This document shows, piece after piece, positions 6,545-19,480 of a stretch of DNA of 64,000 nucleotides (positions within the stretch are counted from its first letter, which is position 1; the number at the start of each line of letters is the position of its first letter). The DNA is from Algibacter marinivivus (GTDB lineage: Bacteria; Bacteroidota; Bacteroidia; Flavobacteriales; Flavobacteriaceae): NCBI RefSeq assembly GCF_003143755.1, contig NZ_QFRI01000001.1, positions 1,448,051 to 1,512,050 on the forward strand, written 5' to 3'. A program made the translations under genes and the position numbers. The notes beneath the pieces were generated by a model. The model was not told the DNA's origin and did no database searches. It saw only the letters and a list, made by a program, of their open reading frames with translations.

Positions 6545-9500
6545 TTGAACCAAACTAACAATAAACTAAAAAAGCTAACTAAACAATCTCTCCTAATAGT
6601 ATTTCTATTATGCTGTTCGTTAGTTGCTTGGTCTCAACAACCTACTCAAGATTCTACTAAAACAGGATTTAGTTTAGGAAAAATTAAAATACCAAATCCA
6701 AACAGTGTAGAATCTAAATACACTTACGATCCCTTAACAGATAGGTATATTTATACTGAAAAAATAGGATCGTTTAACATCAATTACCCTATAATTTTAA
6801 CGCCAAAAGAGTATTATGCTCTTGTAGCAAAAGAAAATTTAAGAAATTATTACAAAGAAAAGATTGATGCTTTTGATGGAAAAAAAGATGGAAGTGAAGA
6901 TGAACGAAAAAATTTGCTCCCAGAATTTTATGTGAACTCAGGATTTTTTGAAAGTATTTTTGGAAGCAATACCATTGAAGTAACACCAACAGGATCTGTT
7001 GAAATGGATTTAGGTGTTTTGTTTTCAAAACAGGATAACCCGTCTTTTTCTCCAAGAAATAGAAGCAATTTTACTTTTGATTTTGACCAAAGAATCAGTT
7101 TAAGTTTATTAGGAAAAGTTGGGACAAGGCTTCAAGTTACAGCCAATTACGATACACAATCTACTTTCGATTTTCAACAACTCATTAAACTAGAATATAC
7201 GCCAACAGAAGATGATATTATTCAAAAAATAGAAGTTGGTAACGTAAATATGCCATTAAATAGCTCATTAATTACCGGAGCACAAAGTTTATTTGGTGTA
7301 AAAGCGCAACTGCAATTTGGTAGAACAACTGTTACAGGAGTATTTTCAGAACAAAAATCGCAAGCCAATACAGTTGTTGCACAAGGTGGTGGTACGCTTG
7401 AAGAGTTTGAATTTTTTATTAGAGAATATGATGAAAACAGGCACTTCTTTTTAGCACAATATTTTAGAGATGAATATGATAATGCGTTAGCAAATTATCC
7501 TTTCATCAACAATAAAGGATTGCAAATTACACGACTGGAAGTTTGGGTAACCAATAGAAGTAATAGAACTGATAATGTTAGGAACATTGTTGCACTACAA
7601 GATATAGGTGAGAGTGATAAAGTGTTTTCTTCTGTTCCTGTGTTTTCTGGACCAGGTGCTTTTCCTGATAATGAAAATAATGGTTTTAATCCAATAGCTA
7701 TTGGAACTTCACAATCGGTTTTAACAGAGCCAATACGAGATGTTTCTACTGCAGATCAAGGTTTTGGTGTTTTAAATGCTGATGTAAATGAAGGAAGTGA
7801 TTATGCTAAACTTGAAAACGCAAGAAAATTAATCAACGGTCAAGAATATGCTTTAAATACAGAGTTAGGTTATATCTCATTAAACCAAAGATTAAATAAT
7901 GATGAAGTTCTGGCGGTTGCATTTCAATATACCGTTGGCGGTCAAGTTTATCAGGTTGGTGAATTCGCCAATGATGGTGTTGATGCTACTGATGTTGATA
8001 CAAATGCACAAGGTCAAGTAACTTCAGTAGTTAATACAGCTTTAGTTCTTAAAATGTTAAAAAGTAGTATTACTAATGTGAATCAGCCTATTTGGGATTT
8101 GATGATGAAAAACATTTACGACACGGGTGCTTTTAACCTGAGTCAGGATGATTTTACATTAAACATTTTTTATAACGAAGCATCTCCATTAAACTTCATT
8201 TCACCGGTTGGTGCTAATTTCCCTCTAGATATTAATGGAAATCCAGTTACAGGAAGTACACCCAGTGATGACTTAATTGAAAATTCACCTTTATTAAGGG
8301 TTTTTAATTTAGATAAATTGAATTTTAATAATGATCCACAATCCAGAGGAGATGGTTTTTTTGATTATGTTCCTGGAATTACTGTAATACCACAAAATGG
8401 CAAAATAGTATTTACCAGTGCAGAACCATTTGGTGAGTATTTATTTAATGTATTAGGTGGAGGAAATTATGATGATGATAATTCATTATATAATGAGGAT
8501 CAGCAAAAATATGTTTACGATATACTTTATAAAAGCACAAAAACAGCTGCTCTTGATGAGGTTGAAAAGAATAAATTCAAATTAAAAGGGCGTTATAAAT
8601 CTTCTGGAGGCGGTGACGGTATTCCAATAGGAGCATTTAATGTGCCACGTGGTTCTGTAAGAGTTACCGCTGGAGGTCGTGTATTAGTTGAAGGTATTGA
8701 CTATACCGTAAATTATCAATTAGGACGTGTTCAAATTCTAGATGAATCTTTAAAAGCATCAAATACACCAATTCAAGTTTCTACTGAAAACAATGCAGTA
8801 TTTGGACAACAAACTAGACGTTTTACAGGTTTGAATATAGAACATAAATTCAATGAGAATTTTGTTTTAGGGGCAACATTATTAAATCTTAATGAACGTC
8901 CAATTACTCAAAAAGCAAACTTTGGTTCAGAGTCTATAAACAATACTATTTTTGGTCTAAACGGAAACTATTCAACCAAAGTGCCTTTTTTAACAAGACT
9001 GGTAAATAAATTACCAAACATTGATACAGATGTAGAATCTAATTTATCGTTACGTGGTGAATTTGCATATTTAGCTCCTGGTGCTCCAAAAGGTACAGAC
9101 TTAAATGGTGAAGCTACATCATATATTGATGATTTTGAAGGCTCACAAAACGGCATCGATTTAACATCACAACAATCTTGGTTTTTATCAAGTAGACCTT
9201 TAGATATTAATGGAAATGGTAATCCTGATGAACCAGAAGATGATGCTGGAATTCAAAATGGTTATGGAAGAGCCATGTTAAATTGGTATACTATTGATCC
9301 TATTTTTTATAGTGTACAACGTCCTGGTGAAATATCTGATGACGATGTTTCTAATCTTTATACCAGTCGTGTATTTATTAATGAGTTGTTTCCTGAACGA
9401 GATTTAGTTCAAGGCCAAAACTCTGTTTTATTCACACTAGATTTAGCATATTATCCAGAAGAAAGAGGGCCTTATAATTTTGAACCTGGTTCAGAAGATG

Positions 9501-12500
9501 ATGAGCTAGACAACCCTATTGATAGTTGGGCAGGTATAACGAGACAGATTACATCAACAGATTTTGAACAGCAAAATGTAGAGTATATTGATTTTTGGTT
9601 ACAAGATCCGTTTCAAGATAACCCAACTAACCCAGGAGGTAAGTTAGTTTTTAATTTAGGTAATATTTCAGAAGATATTATTAAGGATGGTAAAAAACTT
9701 TATGAGAACGGATTACCTGCTGATGGAGATGTTACTATATTGAGACAGCAACCTACTAGTTGGGGAACCATTGTACCACAAAACCAATCTTTAATTTATG
9801 CTTTTGATACTACAGGTGCTGAGAGAGATAATCAAGATGTAGGCTATGATGGTTATAATGATGCAAATGAAATAGACGTTTTTGGTAATCAATTTGGAGA
9901 TGATCCAGCAAAAGATAATTACACTTATTTTTTAAATGCTGAAGGAGATATTTTTGAACGTTACAAAAAATACAATGGTGTGGAAGGTAATACTCCTGAT
10001 ACATTTACTAATACAGATAGAGGCGCTAACACACAACCTGATGTAGAGGATATTAATCGTGATAATACTATGAATACGATTGATAGTTATTTTGAATATG
10101 AATTAGATCTTACAAGAGCTAATTTACCACAATCACAGGCTGATTTTGAAAACCTTCCTGATTCAAATCCGTTAAAACAATTTTTAAGAGATTTTAAAGA
10201 CCAACCACGTTCTTTTCCAAATGGAGATTCAAGAAATGTAAGATGGTATCAGTTTAGAATTCCAGTTCAAGGAAGTCATGTTAAAGCGGTTGGAGGAATT
10301 AACGATTTACGTTCAGTAAGGTTTACAAGAATCTATCTAAAAGATTTTCAAGAAGCTACCGTGTTCCGTTTTGGTACGCTAGATTTAGTAAGAAGCGATT
10401 GGAGAAGATATACTTTGGCTTTAGATAAAAATGACCCAACACCAGATGATCCTCAAACTGATTTTTCTGTTGGTGTAATAGGGACGCTTGAAAACGAAGG
10501 AAGTTACCAAAGGCCTCCTGGAATTGAGCCAGAACAGTTGTTTAATAACAATACGGTTGTTCGTCAAAATGAACAATCTTTAGTTGTAAAAGCCTGTAAT
10601 TTAGAAACTGAAGATTCAAGAGCTGTGTTTAAAAACATAAATATTGATATGCGTCAATATAAGCGTATGAGAATGTTTATGCATGCTGAAGATGGTGAAA
10701 ACGGTACAGGGAATTTAGCTAGTGATGATTTAGTAGGGTTTATTAGAATGGGTAATGATCTTACTGAGAACTATTATCAAATAGAGCTTCCACTGCAAGT
10801 TTCTACATCTACTTCAAGAGAAGGTTTATGGCCAACAGCAAACGAAATTAATATACCAATTGAAATCTTAGGGAAAGTTAAAGCACAAGGGATTTCAGAT
10901 ATGACATTGAGTAATGAAGACCCAACATTTTTCGATGTAATAAATAATGAAATTGTAGCAGTTGCTGATCCATTTGGAGGTTATGTTGTAGGACAGCATC
11001 GTGTTGGAATAAAAGGAAATCCAAATTTTGGTGATGTTAGAACACTTATGGTTGGTGTTAAAAATGTATCCAATGATAATGATTTATGTGCTGAAGTATG
11101 GTTTAATGAATTACGATTATCAGATTTAGATAACGAAGGTGGTTGGGCGGCTGTAGTAAGTATGGATACTAATTTTGCAGATTTTGCAAATATAAGCGCT
11201 ACAGGAAGACAAAGTACTTCAGGCTTTGGATCGCTAGAGCAAGGTCCGAGTCAACGTGCTTTAGAAGATGTAAAACAATATGATGTTGTTACCAATATAA
11301 ACGTAGGACAGTTACTGCCAAAAAAATGGGGTATTCAAGTGCCATTTAATTATGCGCAAAGCGAAGAACTTATTACACCTAAATACGATCAGTTTTATAA
11401 AGATTTAACTTTAGACTCCAGATTGGATGCAGCAGAAAGTAATGCTGAAAGAGAACAGATAAAGCAACAATCTGAAGATTATACAAAACGACAAAGCATC
11501 AATTTTATAGGTGTTAGAAAAAACAGAACAACGGATAAGAAACCCCGTTTTTATGATGTTGAGAATGTCACATTAAATTATTCTTATAATAAAGTTGAAC
11601 ATCGAGATTTTGAGATAGAAAACTCCGTTAATAAAACATTACGAGTTGGAGCAAATTATGCACACAATTTTAACCCAGTTACTATTGAGCCTTTCAAGAA
11701 AAACGACTCGCTTTTTACAGGGAAATATTGGAAGATATTAAAAGATTTTAATTTCAATTTATTACCTACAAGTTTTACAGTTAATACAGATATTAACAGA
11801 CAATTTAACAGACAAAAGTTTAGAGAGGTAGATTTAACAGGTTCTAATATTGGTATTGAAGAATTATTTAGAAGAAATTATACATTCGATTTTCAGTATG
11901 CTATAAATTATAATTTAACTAACTCTTTACAGTTTAACTTTCAGGCGGCAAATAATAATATTGTACGTAATTATTTTGTAGATAACGATTTAATTGCAGG
12001 AGAGCAAGATTCAGAATTAGACGTATGGGATGGGTTAATGGATGTTGGAGATCCTAACAGGCAAACGCAAACCTTAGGCGTTACATACCAATTGCCTTTA
12101 AACAAAATACCAACGTTTAGCTTTATTGATGCCACTTACCAATATACAGGAAGTTTCCAGTGGCAAAAAGGATCTGATTTATTCGGAAATTTAGAAGTTA
12201 ACGGGCAGACTTATGATTTAGGAAATACAGTACAAAATTCAAACGTGCATAATCTTAACACTTCGTTGGATATGAAGCGTTTTTATAAGTATATAGGGCT
12301 AGTTAAAAAACCTATTAAAAGAGTTAGAAAAAGAGCAGGTGCAACTGCTGGTGCACCTCCTGGAGGAAAACCTGATGAGGATAAAAAGCAAACATCTAGG
12401 GTAAAAAATCAATCGCTTACAAAGCTATTAAATGCTGGTGTAGATATTTTAACAAGTATTAAAAGAATACAAGTAAACTATTCTGAAAACAATGGTATAT

Positions 12501-13816
12501 TTTTACCAGGATACTTAAATACACCCGGGTTTATAGGAACGTTTAAGCCTACTGTTGGCTTTACTTTTGGAAGCCAAAGAGATATTAGAGATCTTGCAGC
12601 AAGACGAGGTTGGCTAACAACCTTTGATGAGTTTAATCAACAATATACTTCTACAAATACAAAGCAACTTGATATTTCTGCAAGCTTGCAACCTGTTAGA
12701 GATTTAAAAATTGATATTGTTGGTAATAGGGCTTATTATCAGAATTTTACTGAAAATTATAGAGTAGATAACGGAATATATAATCCTTTAACGCCTAATA
12801 CTTTTGGTAACTTTAATATTTCTACCATTTTAATTAAAACAGCATTTGGTAAAAGTGATGAGATTAACTCGCCAGCTTTTGATGATTTTAGATCTAATAG
12901 ATTAAAAATAGCAGAGCGTTTAGCCGAAAATTTCTATGGTACTAATACTTACACAAGAGATGCTGAAGGGTATCCTCAAGGTTTTGGTAAAAACAATCAA
13001 AAAGTATTATTGCCAGCATTTTTAGCTGCTTATTCTGGACAAGACGCAAATAAAATTACAACAAGTGCTTTTAGAGATGTTCCTATACCAAACTGGGATT
13101 TAAAGTATACAGGCTTTATGAAATTCAATTGGTTTAAAAAACGTTTTAAGCGTTTTTCTGTAACTCATGGATACCGATCTGCTTATACCATCAATCAATT
13201 TAATACTAATTTAAATTTGAATCTGAATCCTGACGATAATGAAGCGCCTATTCCAGGAACTCCTTATGTAAGTCAACCACAAGAAGCTTTAGATCAATCT
13301 GGAAATTTAAAGAATGAGCGTTTATTTAGTAATATCAATTTAACAGAGTTATTTAGTCCGTTAGTTAGGATAGATATGGAAATGAAAAACTCTGTTAGAA
13401 TTTTAGCTGAAATTAAAAAAGACAGAATGTTATCATTAAGTTTTGATAATAATTTGTTGACTGAAGTACAAGGAAATGAATATATTATTGGATTAGGATA
13501 TAGAATTAAAGATTTACGTATTCGTTCTAAATTAGCGGGTCCTAAAAAGCGAATTGTTAGTGATTTAAATATGAAAGCAGATATTTCTGTAAGAGATAAT
13601 AAAACTATTATTAGGTATTTAGATTTAGAAAACAATCAAATTACATCTGGACAAACAATTTGGGGGTTAAAATATTCTGCTGATTATGCGTTTAGTAAAA
13701 ACTTAACAGGTATTTTCTATTTTGATTATACGTTCTCAGACTATGCTATTTCAACAGCATTCCCACAAACTACTATCAGGTCTGGATTTACTATTAGATA
13801 TAATTTTGGTAATTAA
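6545..13816 (+). CDS. sprA: SprA, T9SS outer-membrane translocon and gliding motility protein
   Basis: 2423 aa with an N-terminal signal peptide (about residues 1-30: basic start, hydrophobic LLIVFLLCCSLVAW, cut near SQQ). SprA proteins are known as the very large outer-membrane beta-barrel that forms the type IX secretion channel and supports gliding. Size, many aromatic-rich alternating strands, the SprA-type segments, and a C-terminal strand ending ...IRYNFGN agree with this. The start is TTG at 6545, six bases after the ruvA stop; no ATG precedes the signal peptide. A low-complexity basic/Gly-Pro loop occurs near residues 1925-1955 (from 12,317). Long antisense frames inside it have no support as genes. 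Confidence 0.95.
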   Translation: MNQTNNKLKKLTKQSLLIVFLLCCSLVAWSQQPTQDSTKTGFSLGKIKIPNPNSVESKYTYDPLTDRYIYTEKIGSFNINYPIILTPKEYYALVAKENLRNYYKEKIDAFDGKKDGSEDERKNLLPEFYVNSGFFESIFGSNTIEVTPTGSVEMDLGVLFSKQDNPSFSPRNRSNFTFDFDQRISLSLLGKVGTRLQVTANYDTQSTFDFQQLIKLEYTPTEDDIIQKIEVGNVNMPLNSSLITGAQSLFGVKAQLQFGRTTVTGVFSEQKSQANTVVAQGGGTLEEFEFFIREYDENRHFFLAQYFRDEYDNALANYPFINNKGLQITRLEVWVTNRSNRTDNVRNIVALQDIGESDKVFSSVPVFSGPGAFPDNENNGFNPIAIGTSQSVLTEPIRDVSTADQGFGVLNADVNEGSDYAKLENARKLINGQEYALNTELGYISLNQRLNNDEVLAVAFQYTVGGQVYQVGEFANDGVDATDVDTNAQGQVTSVVNTALVLKMLKSSITNVNQPIWDLMMKNIYDTGAFNLSQDDFTLNIFYNEASPLNFISPVGANFPLDINGNPVTGSTPSDDLIENSPLLRVFNLDKLNFNNDPQSRGDGFFDYVPGITVIPQNGKIVFTSAEPFGEYLFNVLGGGNYDDDNSLYNEDQQKYVYDILYKSTKTAALDEVEKNKFKLKGRYKSSGGGDGIPIGAFNVPRGSVRVTAGGRVLVEGIDYTVNYQLGRVQILDESLKASNTPIQVSTENNAVFGQQTRRFTGLNIEHKFNENFVLGATLLNLNERPITQKANFGSESINNTIFGLNGNYSTKVPFLTRLVNKLPNIDTDVESNLSLRGEFAYLAPGAPKGTDLNGEATSYIDDFEGSQNGIDLTSQQSWFLSSRPLDINGNGNPDEPEDDAGIQNGYGRAMLNWYTIDPIFYSVQRPGEISDDDVSNLYTSRVFINELFPERDLVQGQNSVLFTLDLAYYPEERGPYNFEPGSEDDELDNPIDSWAGITRQITSTDFEQQNVEYIDFWLQDPFQDNPTNPGGKLVFNLGNISEDIIKDGKKLYENGLPADGDVTILRQQPTSWGTIVPQNQSLIYAFDTTGAERDNQDVGYDGYNDANEIDVFGNQFGDDPAKDNYTYFLNAEGDIFERYKKYNGVEGNTPDTFTNTDRGANTQPDVEDINRDNTMNTIDSYFEYELDLTRANLPQSQADFENLPDSNPLKQFLRDFKDQPRSFPNGDSRNVRWYQFRIPVQGSHVKAVGGINDLRSVRFTRIYLKDFQEATVFRFGTLDLVRSDWRRYTLALDKNDPTPDDPQTDFSVGVIGTLENEGSYQRPPGIEPEQLFNNNTVVRQNEQSLVVKACNLETEDSRAVFKNINIDMRQYKRMRMFMHAEDGENGTGNLASDDLVGFIRMGNDLTENYYQIELPLQVSTSTSREGLWPTANEINIPIEILGKVKAQGISDMTLSNEDPTFFDVINNEIVAVADPFGGYVVGQHRVGIKGNPNFGDVRTLMVGVKNVSNDNDLCAEVWFNELRLSDLDNEGGWAAVVSMDTNFADFANISATGRQSTSGFGSLEQGPSQRALEDVKQYDVVTNINVGQLLPKKWGIQVPFNYAQSEELITPKYDQFYKDLTLDSRLDAAESNAEREQIKQQSEDYTKRQSINFIGVRKNRTTDKKPRFYDVENVTLNYSYNKVEHRDFEIENSVNKTLRVGANYAHNFNPVTIEPFKKNDSLFTGKYWKILKDFNFNLLPTSFTVNTDINRQFNRQKFREVDLTGSNIGIEELFRRNYTFDFQYAINYNLTNSLQFNFQAANNNIVRNYFVDNDLIAGEQDSELDVWDGLMDVGDPNRQTQTLGVTYQLPLNKIPTFSFIDATYQYTGSFQWQKGSDLFGNLEVNGQTYDLGNTVQNSNVHNLNTSLDMKRFYKYIGLVKKPIKRVRKRAGATAGAPPGGKPDEDKKQTSRVKNQSLTKLLNAGVDILTSIKRIQVNYSENNGIFLPGYLNTPGFIGTFKPTVGFTFGSQRDIRDLAARRGWLTTFDEFNQQYTSTNTKQLDISASLQPVRDLKIDIVGNRAYYQNFTENYRVDNGIYNPLTPNTFGNFNISTILIKTAFGKSDEINSPAFDDFRSNRLKIAERLAENFYGTNTYTRDAEGYPQGFGKNNQKVLLPAFLAAYSGQDANKITTSAFRDVPIPNWDLKYTGFMKFNWFKKRFKRFSVTHGYRSAYTINQFNTNLNLNLNPDDNEAPIPGTPYVSQPQEALDQSGNLKNERLFSNINLTELFSPLVRIDMEMKNSVRILAEIKKDRMLSLSFDNNLLTEVQGNEYIIGLGYRIKDLRIRSKLAGPKKRIVSDLNMKADISVRDNKTIIRYLDLENNQITSGQTIWGLKYSADYAFSKNLTGIFYFDYTFSDYAISTAFPQTTIRSGFTIRYNFGN

Positions 13817-14073: not shown

Positions 14074-14454
14074 ATGAATATTCCGGCTGAATTAAAATAT
14101 ACCAAAGACCATGAGTGGGTTAAAATAGATGGCGACATTGCTACTATTGGAATTACTGATTTTGCACAAAGTGAATTGGGTGATATTGTTTATGTGGAGG
14201 TTGAAACTTTAGACGAAACTTTAGACGCTGATGAAGTTTTTGGAACTGTTGAAGCTGTAAAAACAGTATCAGATTTATTCTTACCATTATCTGGTGAAAT
14301 TATAGAGTTTAATGAAGCTTTGGAAGACGAGCCAGAGGTTGTAAACTCTGATCCTTACGATGCAGGTTGGATGATAAAGCTTAAATGTTCGGATTTATCT
14401 CAAGTGGATGGATTAATGTCTGCTGATGATTACAAAACACTAATAGGTGCTTAA
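14074..14454 (+). CDS. gcvH: Glycine cleavage system H protein
   Basis: 126 aa, full length for the family. The lipoyl domain carries the lipoylation lysine K63 in the segment GTVEAVKTVSDLF, and the HEWV motif near the N-terminus is typical. It shuttles the aminomethyl group between the P, T and L proteins in glycine breakdown and may serve as lipoate carrier. It overlaps the next gene by 8 nt, so the two are probably translationally coupled. The other gcv genes are not in this window. Confidence 0.95.
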   Translation: MNIPAELKYTKDHEWVKIDGDIATIGITDFAQSELGDIVYVEVETLDETLDADEVFGTVEAVKTVSDLFLPLSGEIIEFNEALEDEPEVVNSDPYDAGWMIKLKCSDLSQVDGLMSADDYKTLIGA

Positions 14455-14824
14455 AAAAGTTACGCTTTTAGCGGCTTTAGGTTATTCTATTGCGTTAGGT
14501 ACGGTTAGTTTAATAACGTTAAACGACCTTCCAGAGGTGCAAATATCATCTGCTGATAAAGTATTTCATTTTTTAGCATATGGCCTTTTTACGTTTTTAT
14601 GGTATTTTGCTTTTTTTTATACATTTAATTTTAAAAAAAAGAAGTCAGTTATATATGCCGTTGTTTTAGCAATAGTATTTGGCATAATTATTGAAATTTT
14701 ACAAGATACGTTGACAGAGTCAAGAGCCTTAGATGTTTACGATGCTTTGGCTAATACTCTGGGAGCTTTAATCGCAGCAATTACAGTGAGTTTTTGGAAT
14801 AAATTGTACGTTAAAAACTCTTAA
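14447..14824 (+). CDS. VanZ-like family membrane protein
   Basis: 125 aa with four predicted helices. The conserved D-K-xxHFLAY segment (SADKVFHFLAYGLF) and the GIIIEILQ...R..D..D..AN..G pattern in the second half are typical of VanZ-like proteins. The start is GTG at 14447, overlapping gcvH by 8 nt. The biochemical function of this group outside teicoplanin resistance is not established. Its place behind gcvH fits what I recall from flavobacteria. Confidence 0.8.
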   Translation: MLKKVTLLAALGYSIALGTVSLITLNDLPEVQISSADKVFHFLAYGLFTFLWYFAFFYTFNFKKKKSVIYAVVLAIVFGIIIEILQDTLTESRALDVYDALANTLGALIAAITVSFWNKLYVKNS

Positions 14825-14884: not shown

Positions 14885-15604
14885 ATGGAGCCTAAAAAAA
14901 ATACCAAAGCAAATGTTGGACGTAATAGTTCACTTTACTTCGCCATTGGATTAGCATTGATGTTGTTTTTAACAAACTATGCCATTAATTATAAAACATA
15001 CGACAAGTCTGATATTGACATAGGGCAATTGAATTTAGATGAATTGGATGATGAAGAAATCCCAATTACAGAACAAATTCAAACACCTCCACCTCCACCA
15101 CCTCCACCAGCAGCACCTGAAGTTATTGAGGTTGTTGAAGATGAAGAAGAAGTTGAGGAAACTGTTATTGAATCAACAGAAGTTGATCAAGAAACAGAAA
15201 TTGTTGAGGTTGAAGAAGTAGAAGTAGAAGAAGTAGAAGAAGATATTGATGTACCATTTTCTGTAATTGAAAATGTACCAATTTTTCCAGGTTGTGAAAA
15301 AGGTAACAACAATGCAAAAAGAGATTGTATGTCTAAAAAGATTTCTCAATTTGTAAATAGAAAGTTTAATACTGAGTTAGCTGGAGATTTAGGTTTATCT
15401 GGAAGACAACGTATAAATGTTATCTTTAAAATTGATAAAACTGGAAATGTAGTTGGAATTCGTGCTAGAGCACCACACCCAGGATTAGAAAAAGAAGCAA
15501 AAAGAGTTATTGGATTATTACCAAAAATGAAACCAGGTAAGCAACGTGGTAAACCCGTGAATGTTCCTTATTCTTTACCAATCATTTTTCAAGTTCAAGA
15601 TTAA
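14885..15604 (+). CDS. Energy transducer TonB, paralogue 1
   Basis: 239 aa. One transmembrane helix (about residues 16-34), a run of eight prolines (68-75), a very acidic Glu/Val repeat linker (80-122), and a TonB C-terminal domain (about 150-238) with INVIFKIDKTGNVVGI...P..LEKEAKRVI..LPKM.PGKQRG. TonB spans the periplasm and passes proton-motive energy from ExbB/ExbD to TonB-dependent receptors. Cysteines C137 and C148 in FPGCE...DC before the domain recur in the next two genes and could form a disulfide. A strong terminator follows. Confidence 0.88.
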   Translation: MEPKKNTKANVGRNSSLYFAIGLALMLFLTNYAINYKTYDKSDIDIGQLNLDELDDEEIPITEQIQTPPPPPPPPAAPEVIEVVEDEEEVEETVIESTEVDQETEIVEVEEVEVEEVEEDIDVPFSVIENVPIFPGCEKGNNNAKRDCMSKKISQFVNRKFNTELAGDLGLSGRQRINVIFKIDKTGNVVGIRARAPHPGLEKEAKRVIGLLPKMKPGKQRGKPVNVPYSLPIIFQVQD

Positions 15605-15630
15605 GAATATATTCTTTAAATTATATACAA

Positions 15631-15659
15631 AACCTCGAAGATGTCTTCGAGGTTTTTTT
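15631..15659 (+). terminator. Rho-independent terminator after tonB paralogue 1
   Basis: Perfect 11-bp stem AACCTCGAAGA/TCTTCGAGGTT with loop TG, followed by a T run. Confidence 0.88.
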
Positions 15660-15702
15660 ATGGATATTATTAAAGTAGAAGTTTTTTTAAAATAAATAAA
15701 AC

Positions 15703-15724
15703 CCCGTTACAGATTTGTAACGGG
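15703..15724. terminator. Second hairpin between the TonB paralogues
   Basis: CCCGTTACA/TGTAACGGG, 9-bp perfect stem with loop GATT. It has a short T-rich run on the plus side and a longer one on the minus side. No minus-strand gene lies close by, so its role is unclear. Confidence 0.5.
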
Positions 15725-15788
15725 ATTTCTTGTTTTGGTATGCTTATTGTGACTTTATCATAACATTAACATTTAAATTCTAATTATT

Positions 15789-16577
15789 ATGAGAAATCAA
15801 AAGAATTCTCACGAACTCATTCGGCAAAATGAGCAAATCGTGAAAAAATCACAAAAGCATGAAACAAATTTACAAAAAAACTCAACCCTTTATTTTCAAA
15901 TAGGGTTAATTGTATGTTTACTAGCAGCATTTGGATTGCTAGAGATGAAGTTTGAAAGTACTATTCCTAATTACAAAGGGTTACCTCCAATTGATCAAGA
16001 AGTGTTTGTTCATATTCCAGTAATTAAAGAAAAGACACCTGCATTGGAAAAACCTGTTAAGCAAAGACGTGTAAAAGACCCAACTATATTTAAAGAAGTT
16101 CCTGATGATACTCCAGAAGACCTTTTTAAAAAAGAATTTATTGAACCTAAAGTTAATGTTCCAACTTTAGATCCCGATGATTTCACTCCTCCTATAGAAG
16201 AACCAACAGAACCTGAAAACGTTCCATTTATTTCTATTCAAAATGCACCAATTTATCCAGGTTGTGAAAAAGCTAAGGATAATAATGCTAGAAAAAAATG
16301 TATGTCTGAGAAAATCACCAAACTGATTCAACGAAAATTTGATGGTAGTGATATTGCATCTAATTACGGCTTAACTGGAAAGCAAAAAATAGATGTACAA
16401 TTTACTATCGACAAAACAGGAAAGGTAACTGATATTAAAACCAGAGCACCACATCCAAAATTGGAAAAAGAAGCTGTTCGTGTTATTAATTTTATTCCAG
16501 AAATGACACCAGGAAAGCAAAGAGATACAAACGTTGGAGTTATTTACAACTTACCTATAGTATTTCAAGTTCAATAA
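15789..16577 (+). CDS. Energy transducer TonB, paralogue 2
   Basis: 262 aa. A longer charged cytoplasmic N-terminus (1-33), one transmembrane helix (about 34-51), a Pro-containing charged linker (60-148), then the TonB C-terminal domain (about 172-262) with IDVQFTIDKTGKVTDIKTRAPHP.LEKEA. It shares with paralogue 1 the YPGCE...C pair (C159, C171) and the RAPHP-LEKEA-RVI block, so the two are a tandem duplication with diverged linkers. It has its own terminator. Target receptors cannot be told from the sequence. Confidence 0.88.
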   Translation: MRNQKNSHELIRQNEQIVKKSQKHETNLQKNSTLYFQIGLIVCLLAAFGLLEMKFESTIPNYKGLPPIDQEVFVHIPVIKEKTPALEKPVKQRRVKDPTIFKEVPDDTPEDLFKKEFIEPKVNVPTLDPDDFTPPIEEPTEPENVPFISIQNAPIYPGCEKAKDNNARKKCMSEKITKLIQRKFDGSDIASNYGLTGKQKIDVQFTIDKTGKVTDIKTRAPHPKLEKEAVRVINFIPEMTPGKQRDTNVGVIYNLPIVFQVQ

Positions 16578-16598
16578 GGACTAAAATTATAATTTCAT

Positions 16599-16631
16599 GC
16601 TTTAAAAACCGTTATCATGTTATGATAGCGG
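16599..16631 (+). terminator. Terminator after tonB paralogue 2
   Basis: ACCGTTATCAT/ATGATAGCGGT stem (one G-U pair, loop GTT) flanked by A and T runs, 30 nt after the stop. Confidence 0.85.
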
Positions 16632-16634
16632 TTT

Positions 16635-16656
16635 TTTCTTGACCTGAATTTATTTC
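16635..16656. repeat. CCTGAA...TTCAGG hairpin module
   Basis: ACCTGAA-TTTAT-TTCAGGT hairpin just behind the terminator. Nearly the same module, CCTGAA-TTTAG-TTCAGG, lies inside element copy 5 at 57321-57337, which suggests a mobile palindrome. Confidence 0.5.
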
Positions 16657-16729
16657 AGGTTCTTAAAATATGACCGTTTTGAATAGATAGTTATCGCTTT
16701 TTATTTATAACAAGAATCGAAAAATATAG

Positions 16730-16737
16730 TATCTTTC
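16730..16737 (+). promoter_or_regulatory. Possible -7 box for the barrel-fusion gene
   Basis: TATCTTTC differs from TAnnTTTG at the last base and ends 28 nt before the ATG at 16766. Confidence 0.4.
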
Positions 16738-16765
16738 AAGCCTAAACTAACTTTCAACATTAACC

Positions 16766-18865
16766 ATGAAGCAATTCATTGTACTACTCCTACTTTTAGT
16801 TCAATATAATCTTGATGCTCAAAATTCCTTATTTTCAGAAAAGCCACCTGTTTTTCCTAGTTGTGAAGGTGTAGTCATTGATTCTTTACAAGCTTGTTTC
16901 AATAAAGAAGTATATAGTACTATTTATAAAAACTTTAAAGTTCCAGAGCAAGTTTCAAAAGAAAATTATGAGGGCGAAGTTGTCGTTATTTTTGAAGTAG
17001 ACACTACAGGTCAGTCTCAAGTAGTTTATACTAACGCTTTATATGATGAATTAAAAAAAGAGGCCAAACGTGTTGTTACAGAGTTTCCAAAAATAAAACC
17101 AGCGACTTACAACGGAAGGAAAACATTTAAGCAATATTCTATAGCCATTAAAATTCCTTTAGTAGATCAATCGAAGGTAGCGCAAGATGTAGCTAAAACT
17201 CAAGAAGTTTCAAAATTAGAAGCAGCAGCAAAAAGTGAGTTTGATAAAGTTGATGAAGAATTAAAAGTTTTTGAAAATAAAGCGTTTCAAAGTCAGTTAA
17301 ATATTCAATTTACCCATAGTGATTATGCGCGATTTGATAGACAGATGAACCTTATTGGCACAAATAGCCATACGGCATCAAAACCATTTGTCTATGAAGA
17401 GGTTTCAAAATATTTTGATTTTCAAGCGGAACAAGACCGATTAAAAAAAGAAGCAGACTCTTGGGGTGAAAAGAAATTATGGAACGAACATTTGGTACAA
17501 CTCCAAGGAAAAGATTATTGGTTTACTGTAGACCCTATTTTAGATTTGCAAGTTGGATCTGATTCTGAGTTGGATTCCGGATCAACGTATAACAATACCA
17601 GAGGTGTTTTAATACAAGGTGGATTAGGAAGTAAATTGAATTTCTACGCTACTGTTTTTGAAAGCCAAGGGCGTTTTGCAGATTATGTAAACCGTTATGC
17701 AGAAAGTTTAAAAGCTTTTGGTCCAGACCCTGCGATTATTCCTGGGCGTGGTATAGCAAAACGATTTAAAACAGATTCTTATGATTATCCTGTAGCCGAG
17801 GCCTATTTATCGTTTGCACCTGCTAAGTTTATAAATATTCAGTTCGGTCATGGTAAAAACTTTATTGGAGACGGATACCGCTCCTTATTGTTAGCAGATG
17901 CTGCGAGTCCGCATCCGTTTTTAAAATTGAATACTAAGTTTTGGAAAATAAAATATACCAATACTTGGATGTGGTTAAAAGATGTTAGAGATGAAGTTGA
18001 AGTAGATAAAGCCTTTTTAACTAAATATATCGCAAATCATTATTTAAGTTGGAATGCTTCAAAACGATTGAATATTGGGTTGTTTGAATCGGTACTATGG
18101 ACAAACTCTAACGATAGAGGTTTTGATGTTAATTACTTGAATCCAATTATTTTTTATAGAGCCATTGAGTTTGAAACGGGCCAAGGAGCAGGTAATGCAT
18201 TATTAGGAGCTTCGGCTAAATACAAATGGAATGATAATGTAAATATTTATAGTCAGTTTATCTTAGATGAATTTTCTCTTGGAGATGTTAAAGCAGGTGA
18301 GAAAAGCTGGAAAAACAAATTTGGGTATCAATTAGGTATTAAATATTATAACGCATTTAAGGTTGATAATCTATTACTACAATTTGAATATAATCGTGTG
18401 CGCCCATACACGTATTCTCATAATACTATTGTGCTGAATTATGCACACAATAACCAACCTATGGCTCATTTGTGGGGTGCTAATTTTAGTGAAGCTATTA
18501 TAATTGGTCGTTATCGTTACAAACGCTGGTTTGGTGATGCTAAATTAATTTTTGGAACACGTGGATTAGATTTTAATACAAGTTCTGATGACTTTAGCTA
18601 TGGTGGAGATATTTATAGGAACTATAACGAGAGACCTTTTGATACAGGTGTTGAAGTTGGGCAAGGTATAAAGACAACAACATTTAACGGAAACTTACAA
18701 GCAGGCTACTTAATTAATCCAGCATCCAATTTAAAAGTCTTTACAGATATAACGGTTAGAAATTTTAACCCAGATGCTACTACAACTTCTACATTTAAAA
18801 GCAATACGGTTTGGTTTAATTTTGGACTTAGAACCGATTTGTTTAATTGGTATTTTGATAATTAG
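16766..18865 (+). CDS. TonB C-terminal-like domain fused to outer-membrane beta-barrel (RemB/Wzi-like)
   Basis: 699 aa. Signal peptide 1-18, then a TonB C-terminal-like domain (about 28-130) with the same P-S-C-E...C pair (C33, C44) as the two TonB genes upstream. A Lys/Glu-rich helical linker follows (about 135-170), then a long C-terminal part rich in alternating aromatic strands with GHGKNFIGDGYRSLLL, which resembles Wzi-type capsule proteins and the flavobacterial gliding protein RemB. It ends in an aromatic strand typical of outer-membrane barrels. It has no inner-membrane anchor, so it is not a conventional TonB. RemB assignment is from memory of the family and uncertain. Confidence 0.62.
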   Translation: MKQFIVLLLLLVQYNLDAQNSLFSEKPPVFPSCEGVVIDSLQACFNKEVYSTIYKNFKVPEQVSKENYEGEVVVIFEVDTTGQSQVVYTNALYDELKKEAKRVVTEFPKIKPATYNGRKTFKQYSIAIKIPLVDQSKVAQDVAKTQEVSKLEAAAKSEFDKVDEELKVFENKAFQSQLNIQFTHSDYARFDRQMNLIGTNSHTASKPFVYEEVSKYFDFQAEQDRLKKEADSWGEKKLWNEHLVQLQGKDYWFTVDPILDLQVGSDSELDSGSTYNNTRGVLIQGGLGSKLNFYATVFESQGRFADYVNRYAESLKAFGPDPAIIPGRGIAKRFKTDSYDYPVAEAYLSFAPAKFINIQFGHGKNFIGDGYRSLLLADAASPHPFLKLNTKFWKIKYTNTWMWLKDVRDEVEVDKAFLTKYIANHYLSWNASKRLNIGLFESVLWTNSNDRGFDVNYLNPIIFYRAIEFETGQGAGNALLGASAKYKWNDNVNIYSQFILDEFSLGDVKAGEKSWKNKFGYQLGIKYYNAFKVDNLLLQFEYNRVRPYTYSHNTIVLNYAHNNQPMAHLWGANFSEAIIIGRYRYKRWFGDAKLIFGTRGLDFNTSSDDFSYGGDIYRNYNERPFDTGVEVGQGIKTTTFNGNLQAGYLINPASNLKVFTDITVRNFNPDATTTSTFKSNTVWFNFGLRTDLFNWYFDN

Positions 18866-18916: not shown

Positions 18917-19480
18917 ATGAAATATAGAAGTAATTATTATGACAAGTTACCTACTAGCTATAAAAATATTTTAAGCGTTTTTTTGATTTCAATATTATTG
19001 ATTTCTTGCAAAGAAAAACCTTTAATTAATTTACCGAATAAAGAAATTCCATATCTCTCGAGATATTTAGACTCAATAATGGATTCAAAATTGTTGGATG
19101 AAAAACCAATACTTATTGTAGATGGAAACTTCATAAGCTCTTATGAAAAAAATAATGGCTGGTTTTTATTGCGTAAAGATGATATTAGGGAATTGAAGTA
19201 TATGGTAGATACTAGTTCGGTTAAATTATACGGTGTTAGAGGAAAGAATGGTGCTATTTTGATAAATACCAAATTACTTGAATACAAATCCAAACCTAAT
19301 AATGAAAAATCAATTTTTGTTTTAGACGGAAAAGTAATTAGTTATTCAGAATATAAAAAAATTGACTTTTCAAATATCAGTGGAATAGCTACATTTACAG
19401 ATAAAGCAACAATAATTTTATATGGGTCAGAAAAAAACACGGAATTGATTTACATTACTAGTAAAATTCCAGCTGATTAA
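18917..19480 (+). CDS. Lipoprotein with two TonB-receptor-plug-like repeats, unknown function
   Basis: 187 aa, not recognised as a named family. The N-terminus (1-31) is a lipoprotein signal with a long polar start and lipobox ending at C31 (LLISC). Residues about 63-120 read PILIVDG...KDDIRELKYM...KLYGVRGKNGAILI, the pattern of the plug domain of SusC/TonB-dependent receptors. Residues about 131-182 repeat it in weaker form (SIFVLDG...IILYGSEKN). There is no barrel. It ends 4 nt before the convergent gene. A periplasm-facing lipoprotein interacting with TonB or a receptor is possible but not shown. Confidence 0.6.
   Translation: MKYRSNYYDKLPTSYKNILSVFLISILLISCKEKPLINLPNKEIPYLSRYLDSIMDSKLLDEKPILIVDGNFISSYEKNNGWFLLRKDDIRELKYMVDTSSVKLYGVRGKNGAILINTKLLEYKSKPNNEKSIFVLDGKVISYSEYKKIDFSNISGIATFTDKATIILYGSEKNTELIYITSKIPAD

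Follow-up and report, generated by a model that had tools for sequence, protein, structure and literature searches.

Do three neighbouring genes whose products share a cysteine motif form a dedicated energy-transfer set, or does the motif belong to their domains more generally? The question arises from a stretch of 64,000 nucleotides of the Algibacter marinivivus genome (Flavobacteriaceae; assembly GCF_003143755.1, contig NZ_QFRI01000001.1, positions 1,448,051 to 1,512,050 of the forward strand; hereafter the window), in which genes for two TonB proteins (TonB-A and TonB-B) and for an outer-membrane barrel protein, apparently RemB, stand in a row. A preliminary description had read these genes as a duplicated set with one member moved to the outer membrane, marked by a P-x-C-E...C motif and specialised for energy transfer. 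We find that the useful result is the fusion of domains in RemB; the shared cysteine motif is real but largely ordinary.

Architecture and identity of RemB

The third gene is called remB because its gene order resembles that of remB loci. Published tables give the remB/sprA locus tags as Fjoh_1657/Fjoh_1653, FP2117/FP2121 and Gilli_2697/Gilli_2693. In Flavobacterium loci from named RemB records the order is gcvH-VanZ-deoC-barrel, the barrel gene being four genes after sprA, which matches the published tag spacing. Fjoh_1657, the tabulated RemB of Flavobacterium johnsoniae, likewise follows sprA by four tags. The window's barrel gene stands five genes after sprA, rather than four, because a second TonB gene is present; the two TonB genes take the place that deoC holds in the named Flavobacterium loci. 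As a separate observation, remB and sprA lie apart in at least three genomes (G076, G193 and G195), and the neighbourhood can thus break.

An AlphaFold2 model of RemB, built with 53 sequences (predicted template modelling score, pTM, 0.66), consists of a signal-peptide helix, a domain at residues 25-131 resembling the TonB C-terminal (TonB_C) domain, a helical segment and, reaching residue 690, a barrel of many strands. The helices and strands of residues 25-131 follow in the same order as in the model of TonB-A. The best match of RemB among solved folds is Escherichia coli Wzi (2ynk; Z 20.5, root-mean-square deviation (rmsd) 3.7, 370 aligned of 441), which covers residues 176-691 of the model, and the next row falls to Z 17.2; in a Foldseek comparison 2ynk has the highest target TM-score (0.61) of the rows shown. 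No solved relative of RemB emerged from a sequence search, and a profile search returned only two rows at chance level.

Because other barrels also score well structurally, sequence homology to Wzi was tested by hhalign against a profile of 31 PF14052 (Wzi family) proteins from genomes of the phylum. The RemB alignment matched this set at 96.1% (E 3e-9, score 78.9), the barrel part alone at 96.8%, and a second RemB set, which shares the window protein with the first, at 96.5%; E values across runs ranged from 3e-9 to 3e-10. Of 150 column shuffles, 148 scored at most 23.0 and the two others (137, 141) aligned just 15 and 32 columns at the ends of the profiles. The reversed control scored 15.8, and Porin_O_P, another barrel family, 35.4 over 31 columns. 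In a genome search PF14052 matched the window's RemB gene with 36.4 bits (cut-off 30.1). The cleanest tie of RemB to Wzi is a transitive one. A search with the RemB profile detects barrels that stand alone in other families, with E down to 6e-121 and matches beginning only near position 173. Among them is L307 (E 4e-113), which plain hmmscan itself recognises as PF14052, again with 36.4 bits against the cut-off of 30.1.

These comparisons support a predicted architecture in which a TonB_C-like domain is fused to a Wzi-type outer-membrane barrel. The barrel and the helices that precede it superpose on Wzi, whereas the N-terminal TonB_C-like domain with its cysteine pair, and the position beside sprA, are additions of RemB. 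With the TonB energy transducers of Flavobacteriales RemB shares a TonB_C domain and a cysteine pair of the PGCE...C kind, but its domain follows directly on the signal peptide, lacks an inner-membrane anchor and has a barrel behind it.

The fusion was seen here only in Flavobacteriaceae. In a survey that covered 296 genomes across the phylum, with three candidates scored in each and weak matches left unlisted, full-length fusions, matching from position 14 or earlier to about 700, were listed for 24 of the 30 Flavobacteriaceae genomes and for none of the 266 others, where no listed match starts before position 173. We fetched the neighbourhoods of the stand-alone barrels in the six best genomes outside the family. 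A sugar transferase gene (PF02397) directly adjoins the barrel gene in three of the six inspected loci (L304, L305 and L306, the first two belonging to one genus), in keeping with kinship to Wzi, and in a fourth (L303) a flippase-type gene (PF01943) lies about 4 kb from the barrel. At the other two (L307 and L308) no sugar transferase was recognised from the first 40 residues of the neighbours, which were not scanned. On the RemB side, the gene just before remB starts like a sugar acyltransferase in 6/40 fetched loci (L058, L060, L062, L080, L081 and L082), and the two of these that were tested are hexapeptide transferases. Separately, PF14052 matches cluster in a genome of another family (G347), five or more of them falling in a span of about 43 kb (C96:992187-1034643).

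The assignment should be interpreted with some caution, since several observations weigh against it. The RemB model is only moderate (predicted local distance difference test score, pLDDT, 74.8), other porin-type barrels reach Z 15-17 against it, and by Foldseek E-value 2ynk ranks fifth, behind AlgE and a porin. Sequence similarity between RemB and Wzi is borderline by the Pfam threshold. Plain hmmscan does not detect it, listing PF14052 neither for the window protein nor for other RemB proteins, nor for five of the stand-alone barrels (L303-L306 and L308). Of the 13 PF14052 matches listed in 60 genomes of the family, 12 lie outside RemB, the exception being that of the window. Three of the six fetched stand-alone barrel loci have no adjoining sugar transferase. 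Finally, it is gene order that links the window's RemB to Fjoh_1657.

The cysteine pair within and beyond the three genes

The open reading frames confirm that the three proteins share the motif as the preliminary description had it, with separations of 11, 12 and 11 residues. The pair brackets a loop ahead of the first helix of the TonB_C domain. A motif specific to the trio is ruled out by counts from the same genome and from the order. The A. marinivivus assembly (11 contigs, 99.89% complete) has six places with a TonB_C domain. Besides the three genes, the pair is present in an unlinked TonB (VPVFPGCEGLSKQATKDC) and in an unlinked protein of the BlaR1/M56 type (VPLFPGCEDMPADKQKKC); the sixth place (L006) is without it. 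A small reading frame after the BlaR1/TonB gene (L002:887-1372) also contains a weak TonB_C-like stretch (E 0.02) with a C...C pair (ICDSVLSKVDKKAC).

Two further samples were read on one alignment of 417 rows. From 91 listed TonB_C matches in other families of the order, 40 were picked by hand down the list; both cysteines are present in 27, the first alone in one, and neither in 12, a count that includes one domain (L204) scored so because it is misaligned, its sequence reading PGCE...C. The pair is thus nearly all-or-none (Fisher p 2e-9, uncorrected for kinship), and both cysteines are kept although the number of residues between them varies from 4 to 17. The second sample took 20 of the 23 TonB_C matches in four other Flavobacteriaceae genomes. 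Seven of these have the pair, five of them being RemB or TonBs of the locus (L230, L237, L238, L240 and L242), and 13 have neither cysteine. All 13 pair-less domains come from two genomes of one genus (G127 and G215) and mostly read FPGG at that site; of the 15 TonB_C domains sampled there, only the two RemB domains carry the pair. The pair is therefore common to TonB C-terminal domains of this order and not universal. The possibility that the motif is generic to all such domains, which the preliminary description had named as a refutation, is borne out for much of the order (27/40) and fails in G127 and G215.

At the sprA/RemB locus the pair is almost without exception. Both RemB cysteines are invariant in 31/31 and 53/53 aligned sequences, two overlapping sets that have the window protein and some genomes in common. 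In the 417-row alignment they are present in 120 of 121 RemB rows (41 of the rows come from loci that were fetched or are the window's own, the other 80 from named records, and some genomes are represented twice), the sole exception being a truncated reading frame that starts too late (L152). Exactly 10 residues separate the two cysteines in 120/120, and past residue 22 the protein has exactly two cysteines in 114/121 rows. TonBs lying between gcvH and RemB were located with a profile built from the sequence that follows the second cysteine and blind to the motif. The pair is found in 77/77 TonBs at 40 fetched RemB loci, in 130/130 at 73 evaluable named RemB loci, and in 28/28 at 20 sprA loci that lack RemB. 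RemB keeps its pair in G127 and G215, and therefore has no need of a partner TonB that bears one.

Relationship and separability of the three genes

That the three domains are related, as first supposed, is upheld. All match Pfam TonB_C (TonB-A 33.3, TonB-B 30.8 and RemB 24.6 bits, the cut-off being 24.6), and BLASTP aligns TonB-A with TonB-B at 57% over 119 residues (E 7e-47), TonB-A with RemB at 31% over 103 (E 1e-11) and TonB-B with RemB at 27% over 89 (E 4e-7). In the model of the TonB-A C-terminal domain (pLDDT 90.6) the nearest solved structures are TonB, TolA or FusB C-terminal domains in the first 22 rows, the best being 6i97 (Z 8.2, rmsd 2.5, 88 aligned); a sequence search for a solved relative of TonB-A gave just two chance-level rows. 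TonB-A and TonB-B are accordingly probable TonB energy transducers by their TonB_C matches and, for TonB-A, also by predicted fold.

In a tree of 72 TonB_C domains, built on 127 columns and leaving 27 of 69 inner branches open, all 16 RemB domains group in a single clade (100/100) whose branch measures 1.42. Another set (95/100) unites 15/16 first TonBs and 12/12 second TonBs with the domain of the unlinked BlaR1-type protein from the window's own genome; three loci (L056, L075 and L080) have tandem TonB pairs of their own. Judged from these sequences, TonB-A and TonB-B are tandem duplicates. The TonB_C-like domain of RemB appears instead as an old, diverged and separate branch and not as a moved copy of either neighbour, because it falls in its own fully supported clade on a long branch. 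Thus of the proposed duplicated set with one relocated member, the duplication stands and the relocation does not. A local duplication as the origin of the RemB domain is unsupported by the tree, with its few columns and open branches. As an aside, members of the TonB-A/B clade have FNTELAGDLGL-like letters before strand 1, against FRYPEIAQEMG in most relatives from genomes without RemB; the altered form also occurs in one RemB-less genome (L181).

The trio is separable and not an obligatory set. The 40 fetched RemB loci have no TonB gene in one case, one in four, two in 32 and three in three. Among the 80 named RemB loci seven were not evaluable, and the 73 counted have none in five, one in seven, two in 60 and three in one; the five TonB-less loci are all Flavobacterium (5/5 of the named Flavobacterium loci), with deoC in the place of TonB. 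Conversely, 20 sprA loci hand-picked from genomes without the barrel gene all have TonB, one gene in 12 and two in eight. The preliminary description had proposed a check for co-occurrence with genes of the type IX secretion system (T9SS) or gliding, and the locus does follow one such gene, sprA. Of 199 Flavobacteriaceae genomes, 121 have a RemB barrel match with a best E no higher than 3.8e-43 and 195 have SprA, all 121 being among these; this co-occurrence says little because nearly all genomes of the family have SprA.

A specialised energy-transfer set, in which RemB would be a relocated TonB copy in the outer membrane that draws its power from TonB-A or TonB-B through pairing of their domains, has in its favor that the genes adjoin, that the three domains are homologous and that at least one TonB gene is found at 39/40 fetched and 68/73 evaluable named RemB loci. 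We regard it as unlikely. RemB occurs without a local TonB in Flavobacterium, TonB persists without RemB at 20/20 barrel-less sprA loci, the RemB domain is a separate old clade, and hairpins stand between the genes. The coordinates of these elements are collected in Table 1. A single co-transcribed set is not evident because the hairpins that separate the genes are terminator-like, and one operon for the trio is unsupported; of the three hairpins, a consensus terminator scan listed only that at 15703-15724. Directly 3' of remB lies a small lipoprotein-like gene (18917-19480) with two similar stretches inside and a weak match to a SusC/RagA signature (25.7 bits, cut-off 46.2), resembling a plug-like piece without a barrel.

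Table 1. Coordinates within the window of the three genes, their domains and cysteine pairs, the hairpins and the neighbouring genes.
Feature	Position	Strand	Details
TonB-A	14885..15604	+	239 residues; N-terminal hydrophobic stretch, Pro/Glu-rich linker, TonB_C 176-236
Cysteine pair C137...C148 of TonB-A	15293..15328	+	P-G-C137-E...C148, separation 11
TonB-B, tandem paralogue of TonB-A	15789..16577	+	262 residues; from Pfam, BLASTP and tree
Cysteine pair C159...C171 of TonB-B	16263..16301	+	P-G-C159-E...C171, separation 12
RemB-like protein (by synteny)	16766..18865	+	699 residues; signal peptide, TonB_C-like domain, helical linker, predicted Wzi-type barrel
TonB_C-like domain of RemB	16838..17158	+	residues 25-131; from Pfam and model
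Cysteine pair C33...C44 of RemB	16862..16897	+	P-S-C33-E...C44, separation 11
Predicted Wzi-type helical bundle and beta-barrel of RemB	17291..18838	+	residues 176-691; fold match 2ynk
Terminator-like hairpin followed by U run, after TonB-A	15630..15655	+	-15.1 kcal/mol, z -4.8
Second hairpin after TonB-A	15703..15724	+	-14.1 kcal/mol, z -4.0
Terminator-like hairpin with U run, after TonB-B	16604..16636	+	-16.7 kcal/mol, z -6.8
sprA (T9SS outer-membrane translocon)	6545..13816	+	TIGR04189, 2757 bits
gcvH	14074..14454	+	context gene
VanZ-family protein	14447..14824	+	context gene

Possible roles of the pair and of RemB

Our results favor, with moderate confidence, a joint reading in which the order-wide cysteine pair is a disulfide and RemB combines a polysaccharide-holding Wzi barrel with a TonB-like docking domain. 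The pair would close a disulfide within the molecule, stapling helix 1 to the arm that precedes it. It is most simply a structural staple because the same pair occurs in inner-membrane TonBs, and a loop closed by a disulfide is expected to lose both cysteines jointly and to vary in length, as seen. Searches of the organism's own genome for DsbA and for VKOR gave no match, which counts against a disulfide.

Binding of a metal or haem by the two cysteines would fit their invariance in RemB, but the number of residues between them varies from 4 to 17 in the order and residues 25-131 of RemB contain no further invariant cysteine or histidine; we give this very little credence. A more specific alternative comes from F. 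johnsoniae, in which SprF and PorG are disulfide-linked through cysteine pairs to GldK in the moving track (2025, PMC12635249). RemB could be a further such client of the GldJ/GldK/GldN track, its disulfide being a donor attacked by GldK. Like SprF and PorG it would be a gliding or T9SS outer-membrane protein with a periplasmic cysteine pair, its pair is invariant on a barrel protein encoded beside sprA, and it retains both cysteines in the two genomes (G127 and G215) whose other sampled TonB_C domains, 13/13, have neither. The pairs differ in kind: SprF and PorG have Cys-X-Cys in a C-terminal tail that forms a mixed disulfide with GldK, whereas the RemB pair is C-X10-C, N-terminal and inside a folded TonB-like domain. 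Moreover, the same pair is found in inner-membrane TonBs, in a BlaR1-type protein and in TonBs of other families, and the name RemB does not occur in the main text of PMC12635249. We therefore consider RemB a highly improbable client of GldK. Nor is RemB at all likely to be a secreted, adhesin-like cargo of the T9SS. Tables in genome papers place remB among adhesin-like and, with RemA, secreted proteins (PMC4891872, PMC4572689), but the NCBIfam and Pfam matches of RemB at E 0.001 include no sorting-domain family, predicted strands reach residue 690 of 699, and the predicted fold is that of Wzi.

Wzi anchors the capsule, as the title of the 2ynk entry also indicates. By analogy, the RemB barrel probably holds or guides a surface polysaccharide, and its periplasmic TonB-like domain may be a disulfide-stapled docking module. 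It might dock onto a strand of the TonB-box kind, a second TonB-type domain or some other part of the envelope. The domain cannot itself carry proton-motive force because it has no inner-membrane anchor. Partner and function of RemB are suggested here by architecture and gene neighbourhood, and would place it near SprA, on the side of gliding that concerns slime or capsule, and not among secreted adhesins or energy transducers. A bolder version, which we think quite improbable, is that RemB couples polysaccharide to gliding, the slime- or capsule-holding barrel being gripped on its periplasmic side through the TonB-like domain and the cysteine pair exchanged onto the force-bearing GldK track or a TonB; if true, polysaccharide would, like adhesins, be moved along the cell.

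In the published lists remB appears by name only, as an adhesin-like gliding gene. No account of a RemB-Wzi architecture was found in the literature searched, a scope that leaves out most subscription journals and does not establish that the architecture has gone unreported. A reading of RemB as a Wzi-type barrel with a docking domain would give remB a concrete place, on the polysaccharide side of gliding and beside a gene of the T9SS translocon. For annotation, it implies that in Flavobacteriaceae a TonB_C domain with PGCE...C is not enough to identify an energy transducer.

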